From a bacterium (lineage in GTDB: Bacteria > Actinomycetota > Acidimicrobiia > Acidimicrobiales > CATQHL01), in contig JAPOVS010000062.1 in assembly GCA_026708055.1 (NCBI GenBank), forward strand, positions 1 through 37,820: a stretch of 37,820 nucleotides of DNA. The letters are read 5' to 3'. This document shows positions 1-8,626 of the stretch, piece after piece. The position numbers and the translations under genes are program-made. Below the pieces are notes generated by a model. That model saw only the letters and a list, made by a program, of their open reading frames with translations. It was not told where the DNA came from and ran no database searches. Positions within the stretch are counted from its first letter, which is position 1, and each line of letters starts with the position of its first letter.

Positions 1-173
1 GCGCCGCGCCCGCCACCAGAACCGGCGCCAACAAACCCGGCAGCGCCACCAGCAGAACCCACCGCCGCGACCGGCGGCGGCGCGAGAGAGAACCGGCGCG
101 CCGCCCGCCGCCGCGCCGTCGAGTCAGATCAGGCGGACAAACCGGGGGGGGGGGGGACAGAATGTGTCATCAT
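1..173 (-). CDS. 5' end of an exported-protein gene with a C13 tract (apparently phase OFF), runs off the window
   Basis: Only the first codons are inside the window. On the minus strand two in-frame ATGs (173-171 and 170-168) open a frame reading MMTHSVPPPP and then enter a run of 13 C. With 13 C the frame meets TGA within four codons after the tract. With 12 or 15 C the same start would read through an Arg-rich stretch into RRSRRWVLLVALPGLLAPVL and AGAA, a clear export signal with basic n-region, hydrophobic h-region and Ala-rich cleavage region. A GAAGG about 10 nt before the ATG could serve as ribosome site. No ATG, GTG or TTG lies in the signal-peptide frame between the tract and the hydrophobic core, so expression should depend on tract length. 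The mature protein lies left of the window and is unknown. A sequencing error in the homopolymer is the main alternative. Confidence 0.5.
144..156. repeat. 13-nt G/C homopolymer near the start of the left-edge exported-protein gene
   Basis: An uninterrupted run of 13 G on the plus strand (13 C in the minus-strand gene) sits five codons after the first ATG. Homopolymers this long are rare outside hypermutable contingency loci. Its length sets whether the start codon and the signal peptide are in the same frame. Confidence 0.85.
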
Positions 174-520
174 ATTTCACGAACCTTCAGTCCTCTCATG
201 CACGGAACGGGAAGGGCATCCCCTCCATCCACGCCACGGGCGCCGGCACGCCCGCGGGACTCGAACCTGCCGCAAGCCTCCACTGGGCACTCCTCGCCGT
301 CATCCGGTCTCCGAAGGACCACACTACACCCCCAGCGCCCCGCCCCCAAAGCCACCGCGCGCCCGAGCCCAGCGCCGCCACCGACCGCAGCACCCGCCGC
401 CGCACCCAACCCAGCCCCGCCCCACGTCCCCACAACCGCCTACTGAAAGATCTGGGCTAGCCCTGGGCGGTCTCAATCGGTCATTGCCTCGTCAACTGGG
501 ATCTGGCCGGCGGTGACTTT
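174..520. other. Divergent intergenic region without a recognisable gene
   Basis: This stretch separates the minus-strand exported-protein gene from the plus-strand ATPase gene. The open frames across it are Pro/Arg/Ala-rich GC artefacts with no domain signature. A T-arm-like string (GGTTCGAGTCCCGC on the minus strand, about 255-268) is present, but I cannot fold a complete tRNA around it. Nothing else was recognised. Confidence 0.5.
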
Positions 521-2066: not shown

Positions 2067-5000
2067 TCAGTCGTCGTCTTTGATGGTGACCGTGGCGGTG
2101 CCCTGCGCGACGGCGGCGCCCTGGGGGTCGGTGAGGACGGCCTGGAAGGTCTCGTCGCCCTCGGCGCCGCCGTCGTTGAGGATGGCTATGTACACGTAGC
2201 GGTAGAGCAGCCGCGTGCCCGCGGTGAACGTCATCAGCCGGCCGGCGCCCGCGGCGTAGCCGCGGTAGTCGGCGCCGTCTCGGGCTGTGCCGTCTCGTGT
2301 GGACAGCCGCACCGACACCGTCCGGTCGGGGGTCTCGCTGAGATACACCATGAATCTGAGGTAGCGGCCGTTCTCGCTGATCTCCACGTCTCGCACCGAC
2401 AGGGCCGGGCCCGCGGGCACAGGCGGCGGGGGCGGGTCGTCGTCGTCTTTGACGGCGACGGTGGCGGCACCCTGCGACGAGGACACGGTGTAGCCGCTGC
2501 CCGCGTCGACGGTGAGCGTGACCGACCCGTCGGGCTCGTCGGTGCTGTCGCCGACGGTGGCGACGGCGAGATTCGCGGCGCCGCCGGTTCCGACCACGAC
2601 TGTGCGGGTGCCGGTCGTGGCGCCGTGGTCGCCGGCCGCGGTGACGGTGACGGTGACCGTCAGCGGCGTCTTCGGGGCCGGGCTCGCGGAGACGGTGAAC
2701 GTCGCGCTCTGGCCCTCGGTGATCCCGCTGCCCGCCGTCACGCTGACCTCCAGGTCGGGGTCCGGAGGCGGGGGCGGCGGGTCGTCTTGAGGGTCGGGAT
2801 CGTCGGGGGGATCAGTGTCGGGCGTGTCGGGGTCCTGGGGATCGGGCTCTCGGGGGTCGTGGTCTTGGGGCGGGTCGTCGTCGGCGACCGCGACCGTCGC
2901 GGCGCCTTGCGGGGTGGAGACGGTGTAGCCGCTGCCCGCGTTCACGGTGAGCGTGACCGACCCGTCAGCCTCGTCGGCGCCGTCGCCGGCGGTGGCGACA
3001 CTGAACGCCTTGGTTCCGCTGGTGGGGATCGCCACGGTCTGCGCGCCGACCGCGGCGCCGTAGTCGCCGGTCTGGGTGACGGTCACCACCACGCTCAGCG
3101 GCGAAGACGGCGCCGGGCTGACGGAGATGGTGAAGCCGGCGGCGCCGCCCTCGGTCACGCCCGCCCCGGCGGTCACGGCGACCTGCGGCGCCGGTGTCGG
3201 CGTTGGCGGTGTGGGGGCTTTCTCGCGGCAGGCCTCGAGGCTGTCGAGCTCGGTGTAGATCTTCTGCCACAGCGCGTTGGGTCCGGCGCCCTGCCAGTTC
3301 GGCGTCTGGCGGTCGGGGCGGGCTTTGAGGTCGGCGACGGTGTAGTCGTCTTCGCCGAGCATGGTGTCACGGGCGCGCCCGAACGTGTCGACCAGGTCGG
3401 GGCGGCTGCCGTTCCAGGGGTCTTGGGTCTTGGCTTCGACTTCGGCCAGCAGGGCGGTGTCGGCGGTGCGGCACGACGGCGGGGACGGGGGGTCGTCGTC
3501 GTCGGAGACGGCGACGGTGGCGGCGGGCCTGCCCGGCGACACCGCATAGCCCCGGCCCGGGTTCACAGTCAAGGTGAGCGACCCGTCGGGCTCGTCGGTG
3601 CTGTCGCCGGCGGTGGCCACGGCGTGGGCGGCGGAGCCTCCGGCCGGGATGGTGACCGTCGCCGGGCCGGCCGCGGCGCCGAAGTCGCCGCTCTCGATGA
3701 CGGTCACGGCGACGGTCAGCGGCGCCGCGGGCGCGGGGTCGGCGGTCACGGTGAACGACGCGGCGGCGCCTTCGGTGATCGCGGGGCCGGCGGCGACTGT
3801 GATCTCGGGCGCCGCCGGGGCCGCCGGGGCCGGCGCGGGGTCGTCGTCTTCGACGGTGACGGCCGCGGTGGCGCGTGCAGCCGACACGGTCCAGCCGTCG
3901 CCGGCGCCCACGGTGGCGGTGATGTCGCCTGGGGGGGTGCGGGCGTCGTCGTCGGCGGTGGCGACGGCGACGGCGGCGACGCCCGTGGTGGGGATGGTGA
4001 CGGTGCGGGGGCCGGTGTGGCCTGACGCTGCCCTGCCGCCGGCGACGGTCACGGTGACGGCGAGGGGCTCGGCGGGGGCGGGCACCGCCGCGACCACGAA
4101 CCCGGCGTCGCCGCCCTCGGTGACAGGGCTGCCCGACGCGCCGATGCGCAGCTCCGGCAGCGTCGCGTCATCAGACGAAGCGCCCTGCTGTTGTTGTTGG
4201 GCTGCGGCGGCGAGCTGCTCGACGACGGTGAGGATCTTGTCCCAGCGCCGGCGGGGCACGCCCGGCTCCACCGCCTCCACATGGGCCTCCAGCTCGGCGA
4301 CGGTGAACCCGCCGGGCTCGCCGCGTATCGTCTTCAACGCTTTCTGCCAGTTCGCGAGCGCGCCGGCGTTGCCGGTGACGTCGCGATGCCTCGCGATCAT
4401 CGACGCGATCAGCGTCTCGGCCTCAGAGGTGTCCACCGCCGGGGCCTGCTGCTGCTGGGCTGGGAGGGGGTCGTCGTCGTCGTGCACCGGCGCCTTCTCC
4501 GACGCCGGCGCGCCGAGCGTGTACCCCGACCCGGCCCGGATCGTGAGCGTGACCGAGCCGTTGGGCTCGTCGGCGCCGTCGTCGACGGTGCCGAGCCGCA
4601 CCGTCACGGTGCCGGTCGTGGGGATCGCCACGGTGCGGGTCCCCGCCTCTCCCTGGGCGAGCCAGTCGCCGTCCTGGGACACCGCCACAGTCACCGCCAG
4701 CGGCGCCGCCGGGGCGGGGCCGGCGGCGACCATGAACTGCACGTCGGCGCCCTCTGTGCCGCCCGCCGACGCCACCACCGACACCTCCGGGACGGCCGCG
4801 ACCGCGTCCTGGCCGCCGCTGCCGGCGGCGTCGTCGTCCGCGACGGGCTGGGCCGCCGCCGAAGGCGTGCCGAGGTGGAACCCGCCCGGCCACGCCGACT
4901 GCGACGCCAGATGCAGGGTGACGGTCCCGTCGGGCTCGTCTGTGCGGTCGTCGACGGTCGGGACCGTGTAGGTGGCCGTGCCGGACGGGCCGATGACGAC

Positions 5001-8000
5001 GTGGCGCCACCCCAGCCAACCGGGGCTGACCCAGTCGCCGTCCTGTGTCGCCCACACCGTCGCCACCAGCGGCACCGACGGCTTCGGGTCCGCGGTCAAC
5101 TCCCAAACCAGCGGCGCGCCTTCTTTGCCGCGCACGGGCGGCACGTCCTCAGCCACGAACGTCTCAGACACGGCGTAGAGGTAGCGGGAGTGGGTGTTGG
5201 GCTGGTTGACGGCGTTGGGGTGCGCGATCCGCAGCGGACCGTGGGCGGACCCCGAGGGGGCCTCCACCGACGCCAGCTGCGGGCGGTTCGTGCCGAGCTC
5301 GTGGCCGGCGCGGCCGGTGCAGTCGTGGTCGCTGCCCGTCCAGACGCCGTTGCCGATGAGCGTCTCGTCGTCGACGAGGGCGACCGCCGCCCCCGACTCG
5401 TCGCGCGCCGAGTAGCTGCCCCACGACCGGTCACAGAAATCGGCGTTGCCGTCCGCGGCCTTCGCGCCGCCCAGCCAATAGATCGGCGCGCCCGGCCCGC
5501 CCAGCATCGCATTGTCGCGGGCGTCCACCGCAGCAGTGGAGCCCACCACGCGGAACCCGCCCGAATAGCCGCGGATGGCCTGATGGCCGGCCGCGGCCCG
5601 GGCCTGCACCGAGGCGTTGTAGGTGTCGATGTCAGACGACGACGCCGGATGCTTCGACGACGTGAGGAACAGCAGCCGGAACCTGTCCCCCGCACTCAAA
5701 CCCGACGGCGCCAGCGCCCAGTCCGCCGGCACCGGCGTCGGCGCGGGGGCGAGCCGCACCGTCGGCACCGCGCTGCGGGGCCTCGAGATGTCCACCCGGT
5801 GGTGCTCATGCAGCCGGTAGTCGCCGCAGGCCGGCGGATCCGGCGGCGGCGGGCCCGACAAAGACGTGCCCACGATGCACGGATGACCGCTGAACAGCCA
5901 CGCCGGACGGTCAGACGAAGCCACCCCCACGTGCACGAACCGGATATCAGCGAGCCTGGTGACGCCGGTGTCGACCGCGGTCAACAACTCGCCGGTCTCG
6001 GTGCGGTGCGCGCCGAAATCCACGTCCGGCGACGCCGAACCATCGCGGGTGAGCACACGCAAATTCAGATCGAACCGCACCGGACGGCTCAGCACCACCC
6101 AGATATTGCCGTCCGGGTCGCCGCGGCGCGCGAACAGCACCTCGGCCTGGTCGTCGTCGCGGACCACCACCTCCAACTCCCGACGCGCCGACGCCGCCTC
6201 CGCGCCCAAAGCCGCCCCCGACACCTCCAGGGCGGCGACCCAGGTCCAGTCGTCCTCCACAATGTTGTCGTCGATCATCGGCACGAAGAACCGCGCCGAC
6301 GTCTGCCCGACCCTCACCACCGCCGTGTGGCGGGCCTCGTAGATGTCGCCGTCAGGGCCGACCGTCGGCGCCCACAACGACGACGGCGCCTCGGGCTCCA
6401 AAGTCGCGGCCACCCGGAACGGGGCCTTCGCCGCCGGCGACACCGAAACCGGCAATACCAGCTCCGAGGACTCCAGCCACGCCGTGCGCCGGCCCCCCTC
6501 CAGGCCGTCATAATCCCAGCCCGCGGACACCGCATCCCCGGCGGGGCCGTCGCCGTCGGACGCCGCGACCGTCACCGTATGGGTCGTGGCGGCCGGGTCC
6601 AGCTCCACGTCCGCGACGCCGGGATCGATCAGGGTCAACACCGCGGTCTCCGCGCCCTCAGGCTCGGCGTCGTCCACCACCCACACCGAGATGTCCACCG
6701 ACGTCGCCCCCACAGGCACGGCCACCCGCCCGCGCGCGACCGCGCCGCGCGCGGACGGCACGCTGTAGTCCTTGAACGGCTCCGCCGAGCCCGACAGCGC
6801 GAACTCCAGCCCGAACGCCTGCGTGGCGGCCGTGGACAACTCCACGCTCACCGTCGCCGCCGAGCCCTCTGCGGCGGCGGTGGCGGGCTGGGCGAAGCTG
6901 GCCAGCGACGTCTCCGCGATCGTCACCGTCGCCGACGCGGGCGCGGCTGTGGCCAGCCCCGCGGGCACCCCCGACAGCACCACCTCGAACGTCTCCCTGT
7001 CATCGGACACACTGTCCGCCACGGTCGAGATCGACACCGTCCCCCGGGTCTGGCCCGCCGGGATCGTCACCGAGTGGGTCCCGCCGGCGAAGTCAGCCGG
7101 CGAGTCCGCCGTGCCCGCGTTCGCCGTCACGGTGACCGTCACCGCGGAGACCAGAGGCGCCGACAGCACCACCCCCACCTCGGCGGGGCTGCCCTCGGCC
7201 GCCTTGAAGGAAGCCGCCGACAGCGACACGCTCTGCGTCACGTCGGTGATGCTCAACGCCGCCGCGTCGTCGGTGGCCGTCACCCCGCCGCCCAGACCCA
7301 CATCGTTGTTGCCGGAGTCCAACACGCCCGACGTCGTGGCGATCGTGCCCATGCCGACGTCCACCGTCTCGGACTCGCCGCCGACCAAATCAGCGGAGGC
7401 GGTCAGCGTCAACGTCACCGACGCCGCGGTCTCGCCGCTGCTGGGACCCGTGAAAGTCACCGTCGGCGCGCTGGCGGTGTTCAAGTCGTTGCAGGTCACC
7501 CCCGTCGGCAGCGGCGCAGGACAAGCCAGCGTGAAATCGGTGTTGCGAACCGCCGCGCCGGTGCCGCTGTTGAAGGTCAGCGGCACCGCCAAAGACTCGC
7601 CGGCCACCAGCCCCCGGCCCAGCGTGACCGTGTACGTGTGCGCCGCGCCCTCACTCACCGCAGACCCCGAGGCCCGCGCCAAAGTCACCGCCGTCGGGTC
7701 GTCGTCCAGGATCAGGACCTCAGCACGGCCCGGCGAGCCGATCCGATAATGAGTCGGGCGGGGCAGGATCGTCGCGATCGCCTTGCCGTTGGGCTCGTCC
7801 ACACTGTCATCGATGACCCGCACGCCGTTGTTGTGGCCGAAGGATGGGATTGCCAACCGGTTCTCATAGACCCTTATGTCACGGGAATCGCCGAGGTCGC
7901 CCTCCTGCGAGAGCCGAAACCTGACAGCCACTCTGCCGGTGGTGTCAAAGCGGAACGGCGCAATCTCCTGATAGCCGTCTATCTGCTCGCCCTCGGCCAC

Positions 8001-8522
8001 CCGGTCCTTCAGGTACCCATCTCGATGTCGGCCATGGACGGTGATCACCGGCCGCGTGTCCGTCACCACCGTCGCCGTCACCGTCGCCCCCGACACGACG
8101 CCGTTCGGGTAGTTCGCCGTGTCCCCGGAGTCCTGGATGCTGTGCGTGATCACAGCCGTGTCGCTCACCGCCGCGCCCGACGCAGACGTCACCGTCACCG
8201 TCTGCGCCACATTCCAAGCGTTGGAACCAGTGGGCGCGAAAGTCAGCGTGCCCTGGCTGCCGCTCGTATCGGGGTCGGTGTCCACCGTGACATGGGTCGT
8301 GTCGCCCGAGGACACCGCCACCGACACACTGCCCGACGGCGCCGACTTCAATTGCACGGTGTACGTCGCGGCGCCCTCGTTCGCGAACACGTCCAGAGCA
8401 GAGACGCTCAGGGTCAGGCCATGGACGACAGTCTGCGCCTCAGCGTCGCGCACCCCCGACGGCGCCACCAGCAGCGAGGCCGACAACGCCGACGCGAGCA
8501 CCGGAGCGAACAAACGCCGCAC
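2067..8522 (-). CDS. Giant secreted Calx-beta-type repeat protein, probably phase-variable
   Basis: Read from the in-frame GTG at 8522 the product is 2151 residues. It starts with a signal peptide (VRRLFAPVLASALSASLLVA, cleavage near AEAQ). Next come Calx-beta-like modules to about residue 900, an uncharacterised domain at about 930-1122 (LSAGDRFRLLFLTSS, YWLGGAKAADGNADF, VWTGSDHDC), and about five or six repeats of roughly 105 residues of the form TEGxxxxFTVxxxPAP...DEPDGSxTLTV...DDD from about 1126 onward. Two alpha-helical inserts (about 1361-1447 and 1684-1777) interrupt the repeats, and a final Calx-beta module ends in DDD. Calx-beta modules usually bind calcium and build adhesins. No C-terminal membrane anchor or sorting motif is seen, so the protein is probably released or held non-covalently. 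An upstream start at 8626 is out of frame because of a G13 tract. The GTG at 8522 has no good ribosome site, so the gene may be OFF in this sequence. Confidence 0.75.
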   Translation of the reverse strand: MRRLFAPVLASALSASLLVAPSGVRDAEAQTVVHGLTLSVSALDVFANEGAATYTVQLKSAPSGSVSVAVSSGDTTHVTVDTDPDTSGSQGTLTFAPTGSNAWNVAQTVTVTSASGAAVSDTAVITHSIQDSGDTANYPNGVVSGATVTATVVTDTRPVITVHGRHRDGYLKDRVAEGEQIDGYQEIAPFRFDTTGRVAVRFRLSQEGDLGDSRDIRVYENRLAIPSFGHNNGVRVIDDSVDEPNGKAIATILPRPTHYRIGSPGRAEVLILDDDPTAVTLARASGSAVSEGAAHTYTVTLGRGLVAGESLAVPLTFNSGTGAAVRNTDFTLACPAPLPTGVTCNDLNTASAPTVTFTGPSSGETAASVTLTLTASADLVGGESETVDVGMGTIATTSGVLDSGNNDVGLGGGVTATDDAAALSITDVTQSVSLSAASFKAAEGSPAEVGVVLSAPLVSAVTVTVTANAGTADSPADFAGGTHSVTIPAGQTRGTVSISTVADSVSDDRETFEVVLSGVPAGLATAAPASATVTIAETSLASFAQPATAAAEGSAATVSVELSTAATQAFGLEFALSGSAEPFKDYSVPSARGAVARGRVAVPVGATSVDISVWVVDDAEPEGAETAVLTLIDPGVADVELDPAATTHTVTVAASDGDGPAGDAVSAGWDYDGLEGGRRTAWLESSELVLPVSVSPAAKAPFRVAATLEPEAPSSLWAPTVGPDGDIYEARHTAVVRVGQTSARFFVPMIDDNIVEDDWTWVAALEVSGAALGAEAASARRELEVVVRDDDQAEVLFARRGDPDGNIWVVLSRPVRFDLNLRVLTRDGSASPDVDFGAHRTETGELLTAVDTGVTRLADIRFVHVGVASSDRPAWLFSGHPCIVGTSLSGPPPPDPPACGDYRLHEHHRVDISRPRSAVPTVRLAPAPTPVPADWALAPSGLSAGDRFRLLFLTSSKHPASSSDIDTYNASVQARAAAGHQAIRGYSGGFRVVGSTAAVDARDNAMLGGPGAPIYWLGGAKAADGNADFCDRSWGSYSARDESGAAVALVDDETLIGNGVWTGSDHDCTGRAGHELGTNRPQLASVEAPSGSAHGPLRIAHPNAVNQPNTHSRYLYAVSETFVAEDVPPVRGKEGAPLVWELTADPKPSVPLVATVWATQDGDWVSPGWLGWRHVVIGPSGTATYTVPTVDDRTDEPDGTVTLHLASQSAWPGGFHLGTPSAAAQPVADDDAAGSGGQDAVAAVPEVSVVASAGGTEGADVQFMVAAGPAPAAPLAVTVAVSQDGDWLAQGEAGTRTVAIPTTGTVTVRLGTVDDGADEPNGSVTLTIRAGSGYTLGAPASEKAPVHDDDDPLPAQQQQAPAVDTSEAETLIASMIARHRDVTGNAGALANWQKALKTIRGEPGGFTVAELEAHVEAVEPGVPRRRWDKILTVVEQLAAAAQQQQQGASSDDATLPELRIGASGSPVTEGGDAGFVVAAVPAPAEPLAVTVTVAGGRAASGHTGPRTVTIPTTGVAAVAVATADDDARTPPGDITATVGAGDGWTVSAARATAAVTVEDDDPAPAPAAPAAPEITVAAGPAITEGAAASFTVTADPAPAAPLTVAVTVIESGDFGAAAGPATVTIPAGGSAAHAVATAGDSTDEPDGSLTLTVNPGRGYAVSPGRPAATVAVSDDDDPPSPPSCRTADTALLAEVEAKTQDPWNGSRPDLVDTFGRARDTMLGEDDYTVADLKARPDRQTPNWQGAGPNALWQKIYTELDSLEACREKAPTPPTPTPAPQVAVTAGAGVTEGGAAGFTISVSPAPSSPLSVVVTVTQTGDYGAAVGAQTVAIPTSGTKAFSVATAGDGADEADGSVTLTVNAGSGYTVSTPQGAATVAVADDDPPQDHDPREPDPQDPDTPDTDPPDDPDPQDDPPPPPPDPDLEVSVTAGSGITEGQSATFTVSASPAPKTPLTVTVTVTAAGDHGATTGTRTVVVGTGGAANLAVATVGDSTDEPDGSVTLTVDAGSGYTVSSSQGAATVAVKDDDDPPPPPVPAGPALSVRDVEISENGRYLRFMVYLSETPDRTVSVRLSTRDGTARDGADYRGYAAGAGRLMTFTAGTRLLYRYVYIAILNDGGAEGDETFQAVLTDPQGAAVAQGTATVTIKDDD

Positions 8523-8626
8523 AGCCCAGCGCGCCGACGCGCCCCCCCCCCCCCGCGCAACTTCGCAGCCGAACAGGGGCGCTCCGACGTCTGCCGCAAA
8601 CCTCTGACAGCGCCCAGACTCATCAC
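8523..8626 (-). other. Out-of-frame leader of the giant repeat protein, containing the G13 tract
   Basis: A GTG-ATG at 8626-8621 opens MMSLGAVRGLRQTSERPCSA and so on to KLRGGGG, then with 13 G passes into an Arg/Cys-rich frame (ARRRAGLCGVC) that is not the repeat-protein frame. With 11 or 14 G it would continue as ASARWAVRRLFAPVL, joining directly to the signal peptide. A single-base change in tract length would therefore add an N-terminal extension and link translation to the upstream start. This is the same design as at the left edge of the window. Confidence 0.55.
8542..8554. repeat. 13-nt homopolymer (C on plus, G in the gene) before the repeat-protein signal peptide
   Basis: Thirteen uninterrupted G on the minus strand lie about 20 nt upstream of the GTG at 8522 and 24 codons after the GTG at 8626. 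The tract has the same length as the one at 144-156. Confidence 0.85.

Follow-up and report, generated by a model that had tools for sequence, protein, structure and literature searches.

The window, i.e. the whole stretch of 37,820 nucleotides that was analysed, is contig C62 of genome G000 and begins at an assembly break. The 5' part of a gene lies on the minus strand at this left edge, where ATGATGACACATTCTGT is followed by a run of 13 C (positions 144–156, or G144–G156 on the plus strand). The minus strand of 1–173 reads ATG ATG ACA CAT TCT GT, then C13, then GGTTTGTCCGCCTGATCTGACTCG. The segment ahead of the tract (157–173) begins with two start codons, ATG ATG (173–168), and would encode the short leader peptide MMTHSV. 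At the assembled length the ATG frame gives MMTHSVPPPPGLSA and is closed by a TGA (131–129) 15 nt past the tract, in agreement with the sequence-only reading, according to which this frame crosses the tract and soon stops. Another minus-strand frame (2–166) reads HILSPPPPVCPPDLTRRRGGGRRAGSLSRRRRSRRWVLLVALPGLLAPVLVAGAA; it begins behind a TGA that lies 10 nt ahead of the tract, and is still open at position 1. This frame has a basic n-region and a hydrophobic core (WVLLVALPGLLAPVLVAGAA, about 2–61), which bears out the export signal described earlier after the tract.

Reading from the start codon gives 14, 16 or at least 58 codons at 13, 14 and 15 C, respectively, and the claim that 12 or 15 C would join the ATG to the signal frame thus holds. 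ATG, GTG and TTG codons were looked for in the signal frame before the hydrophobic core and none was found; GTG or TTG codons do occur at 49, 34, 31 and 16, all of them within the core. The previous statement that the signal frame has no alternative start is therefore correct in substance, and needs amending only for the codons within the core. The leader region upstream (232–341, minus strand) is about 73% identical to the leader of a paralog on contig C27 of the same genome. It contains a stretch resembling a tRNA T-arm (GGTTCGAGTCCCGC, 247–270, minus strand), and a run of ARAGORN on the window found no tRNA.

As had been proposed, this gene is the second of such a design in the window. The other one is also on the minus strand and carries a tract of 13 G (8542–8554) between an ATG (8623–8621) and a signal-peptide frame, which continues into the mature protein (2067–8540). 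It is out of frame at G13, would need 11 or 14 G, and stays open for 2,157 codons after the tract. The predicted protein contains Calx-beta domains and one more distant copy of the N-terminal domain of the C27 protein (5145–5732). The signal frame of this gene also extends far upstream, with other possible starts.

The identity between the edge gene and C27 covers exactly 55 nt (1–55), the last minus-strand bases up to the contig end, as would be expected where a de Bruijn graph with k = 55 enters a repeat. In C27 the same signal peptide follows GTG ATG TGT TCT AGT ACG and C12, and leads into at least 1,597 open codons of a predicted secreted protein, up to the contig start; the corresponding readings are 14, 16 or 1607 codons long at 12, 13 and 14 C. 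Since the signal peptide of the edge gene is of the C27 type and the C27 frame stays open for so long, the edge gene is likely to code for a related protein, also large and secreted, whose own body lies beyond the contig. When the sister genomes were searched at the DNA level for sequence continuing past position 1, only C27 and, for the leader, contig G004:C182 were hit, and no other continuation was found in the own genome.

The C27 protein had no match in a Pfam search, and the N-terminal domain shared by its family had none in a PDB search; AlphaFold models this domain with a mean pLDDT of 39. Homologs of the first C27 domain, 79–93% identical, are present in metagenome-assembled genomes (MAGs) labelled Acidimicrobiaceae, Microthrixaceae, Actinomycetes, Chloroflexi and Gammaproteobacteria. 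Three genes (L071, L072 and L074) are 94–98% identical over 3 kb in MAGs labelled Chloroflexi, Gammaproteobacteria and Acidimicrobiia, and this near-identity may reflect either lateral transfer or mis-binned contigs.

With its mature part beyond the contig, the edge gene could also be a decayed pseudogene in which the tract is a by-product of decay. A related copy does look broken: in an RCC1-family-like gene with C12 (contig C44; L031, tract at 6924, minus strand) the frame of the hydrophobic signal region is closed by a TAG just past the tract. We regard decay of the edge gene as highly improbable, given that its signal peptide is undamaged and shares 55 identical nt with that of a paralog with a long open frame, that the tract phase is its only lesion, and that the other window gene remains open far past its tract.

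The C13 tract of the edge gene is longer than chance would give and lies inside the 5' coding region. The window contains 1109, 258, 99, 22 and 5 runs of G or C at lengths 3 to 7, none at lengths 8–12 and two at exactly 13, both of them placed between an ATG and a signal peptide. Extrapolation of the decay of run lengths gives about 0.001 expected runs of at least 13. Naive base composition, which predicts many 10-mers, was rejected as a background because it greatly overestimates the number of runs of 6–9. Tract-bearing loci taken from the genome show a bimodal distribution, with 16, 0 and 1 runs at lengths 7, 8 and 9 and 35 at lengths of at least 10; these loci were picked for their tracts, so that long runs are over-sampled, which does not explain the gap at 8–9. 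There are 38 tracts of at least 10 in the whole genome. A signal-peptide frame follows 10 of 39 long tracts versus 13 of 689 short runs (p = 7e-8, each run counted in both orientations). Most members of the family have 22–92 tracts of at least 10 per genome, versus 0–6 elsewhere in the order; the exceptions in the family are G003 and G007 with one such tract each. A sister-genus genome in 3 contigs (G008; contig G008:C2, L152–L174) has about 52 tracts of at least 10, which are partly clustered and for the most part do not precede signal peptides. The arrangement of ATG, tract and signal peptide was rejected as a general rule for that genome, only a few of the 52 tracts looking so.

The same arrangement was found in 15 genes of this genome and its relatives, and each of them was read at three tract lengths. 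Only four are in frame at the observed length: G004:C182 (C14, read to the contig end), G004:C171 (C13), G000:C76 (C11) and L072 (C9). The remaining 11 are out of frame, namely both window genes (C13 and G13), C27 (C12), C18 (C15), C38 (C12) and C40 (C12) in this genome, and G004:C137 (G13), G004:C177 (G10), L069 (C14), L070 (C12) and L073 (C12) in the others. Four of 15 is close to the one third predicted for a free phase, unlike what a constitutive gene with occasional miscalls would give. RCC1-repeat proteins are among the targets (C18, C40 and C76). In C50, which encodes a protein with PGA_cap and VanY domains, C13 precedes the signal, and no clear ATG was identified before the tract. C38 also has an ATG in the signal frame some 46 nt before its tract; the ATG preceded by AGGAGG was considered the more likely start.

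Conceivably, a genuine tract could affect only the leader RNA or the expression level, in the manner of a rheostat, if an unusual codon 3' of it served as the start. This would agree with the ATG found between tract and signal in the relatives L069, L070 and L071, with the ATG directly 3' of the tract in C70 (L039), and with four G tracts lying between −35- and −10-like hexamers (see below). Because of their ATG 3' of the tract, L069 and L070 show that the tract is not decisive in every relative. For the window gene such a start seems quite improbable: like C18, C40, C50, G004:C137 and G004:C177, where ATG, GTG and TTG were likewise looked for and not found, it has none of these codons in the signal frame before the core, and the upstream ATGs, several of them preceded by AGGAGG-like sites, are in frames that reach the tract without meeting a stop.

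Two pairs of orthologs differ in tract length in such a way that the phase is changed. The leaders of C27 and of G004:C182 from a sister species are about 90% identical and have start codons that share a frame, offset by one codon, but the tract is C12 (out of frame) in the former and C14 (in frame) in the latter. Similarly, the RCC1 gene of C40 has C12 (out of frame) and its ortholog G004:C171 has C13 (in frame), with 90% protein identity over the region compared. Both differences concern loci related to the window locus. Together with the absence of a usable start at 13 C and the recurrence of the design, they support the earlier proposal that tract length is decisive for the edge gene. The leader in G004:C182 (L009:2243–2487) is a mosaic, C27-like up to the tract and similar to the window gene after it, with the contig ending 40 nt past the tract. 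This mosaic suggests that 5' switch cassettes may recombine.

All the sequences compared come from consensus assemblies, most of which are MAGs, and miscalls of long homopolymers can occur in them. The tract length could thus be a sequencing or assembly error in a real gene that is constitutively in frame. Homopolymers of 12–15 are error-prone in short reads, and some contig ends carry implausibly long poly-C: contig C58 starts with C53 (L037:1–53) and G002:C20 with C41 (L048:1–41). The latter two are possibly poly-G read artefacts or real tracts that halted assembly; runs of extreme length close to contig ends or N's (L014, L035, L037 and L048) were set aside as possible artefacts. Error is an unlikely explanation, as a paralog and an ortholog, on other contigs and in other genomes, have a tract at the corresponding position, the proportion of genes out of frame is far above the yield of occasional miscalls, and tract lengths differ between orthologs whose flanks match well.

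Polymerases and ribosomes can slip on long homopolymers, and programmed ribosomal frameshifting or transcriptional slippage on the C run might yield some in-frame product at any length, even coexisting with switching. Such a mechanism is very hard to reconcile with the use of both C runs (proline codons) and G runs (glycine codons) and with lengths of 9 to 16 in differing phases, a programmed site being expected to conserve one length and one slippery context. None of the four alternatives, i.e. error, a downstream start, frameshifting or decay, covers the recurrence, the mixture of phases and the differences between orthologs together.

Homopolymer phase variation by slipped-strand mispairing is a textbook mechanism. 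Very probably, the edge locus holds the 5' end of a gene that is translationally phase-variable by this mechanism and encodes an exported protein. Translation would start at the ATG 14–17 nt ahead of the C tract, and mispairing at the tract in replication would add or remove C's. Only tract lengths divisible by three (12, 15) would place the signal peptide and the mature protein in frame with the start codon, and in the other two phases translation would be over within about 16 codons. The assembled consensus of 13 would then correspond to the OFF state, and cells of one population would switch between states, possibly to their benefit. The edge gene would be one of a set of loci in this genome that control secreted repeat proteins and some anti-phage genes.

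Tracts of the latter kind were found in three genes. A type ISP restriction-modification gene (L024:1347–6270, minus strand, contig C26) is split by G11 (3440–3430); it is out of frame at this length and in frame at 10 or 13, and its parts match consecutive stretches (7–932 and 935–1357) of one PADLOC model. This gene is probably a phase-variable phage defence. A gene for an HmaC-like ATPase (L040:73–3437, contig C75) is out of frame at C12. The SspC gene (L044:3361–7236, minus strand, contig C82) was initially a candidate for a frameshift by its tract, which was rejected because frame-by-frame reading shows it to be in frame at C10. In addition, four tracts of G10–G16 lie between TTGACA and a −10-like hexamer (L020:1590 and L021:1932 on the minus strand, L027:6320 and L032:6590 on the plus strand) in the shared motif CTTGACATGC, G tract, TACNTTGCCC. 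The length of the spacer between the hexamers would change with that of the G tract, and the position of these four tracts suggests a transcriptional class as well.

The setting of a repeat near the region coding for a signal peptide is familiar from Neisseria opa and Helicobacter hopZ/oipA, where it determines the frame of a surface protein. Those genes use CTCTT or CT repeats and encode outer-membrane proteins of diderms, whereas the present loci belong to an actinobacterium and have a run of a single nucleotide, C or G, separating the ATG from the signal. Isolate names of the relatives (COS, CO36) are presumably those of sponge projects, and a sponge origin of the lineage is taken here only as a lead. 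Our tentative proposal, which may well turn out otherwise, is that this uncultured and probably sponge-associated acidimicrobial lineage has a genome-wide contingency system that randomly switches some promoters and anti-phage genes as well as the export of RCC1-repeat and Calx-beta-type proteins, with 5' cassettes (promoter, ATG, tract, signal) recombining between genes and species. If so, cells within a single uncultured population, possibly associated with sponges, would make randomly differing sets of large exported repeat proteins and phage defences. This would amount to bet-hedging at the interface of symbiont, host and phage, hidden by consensus metagenome assemblies, and gene presence would be a poor guide to expression in such genomes.

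No relevant paper on such tracts in the present lineage was found in the collection of papers searched, and their scale in it (the number of loci) as well as their targets (RCC1-repeat and Calx-beta-type secreted proteins) appear to be undescribed. Legionella RCC1 effectors and repeat proteins of sponge symbionts exemplify the eukaryotic-like repeats of symbionts and pathogens (PMC7542358, PMC8163846). Several of the tract-bearing genes described here likewise encode predicted secreted proteins with RCC1 repeats, a class that some bacteria use on host cells. One sponge survey tallied ankyrin, LRR, TPR, HEAT and WD40 repeats, which were scarce in Actinobacteriota; its text does not contain the word "phase" (PMC7542358, PMC8163846).

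In phage growth limitation of Streptomyces coelicolor, the length of a G tract in pglX switches an anti-phage gene at measured rates (PMC4365076). It is comparable to the tracts in the ISP restriction, HmaC and SspC genes of the present genome in that a tract lies in an actinobacterial anti-phage gene. However, pglX is one defence gene with measured switching, whereas the present finding concerns the putative switching of a predicted exported protein.

Another member of Actinomycetota, Cutibacterium (Propionibacterium) acnes, has 54 variable tracts, nearly all of G or C (PMC4746626), including those of the phase-variable adhesins DsA1/DsA2 (PMC4746626, PMC3848858). Common to it and to the present lineage are the phylum, the many tracts and their composition of nearly always G or C, the presence of both intragenic frameshift and upstream or promoter classes, and surface proteins among the targets. 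C. acnes belongs to another class of the phylum and its tracts concern other proteins; most of its variable tracts are intergenic and vary by clade. Unlike C. acnes, the present lineage has a recurring design in which the tract is placed between the ATG and the signal peptide.
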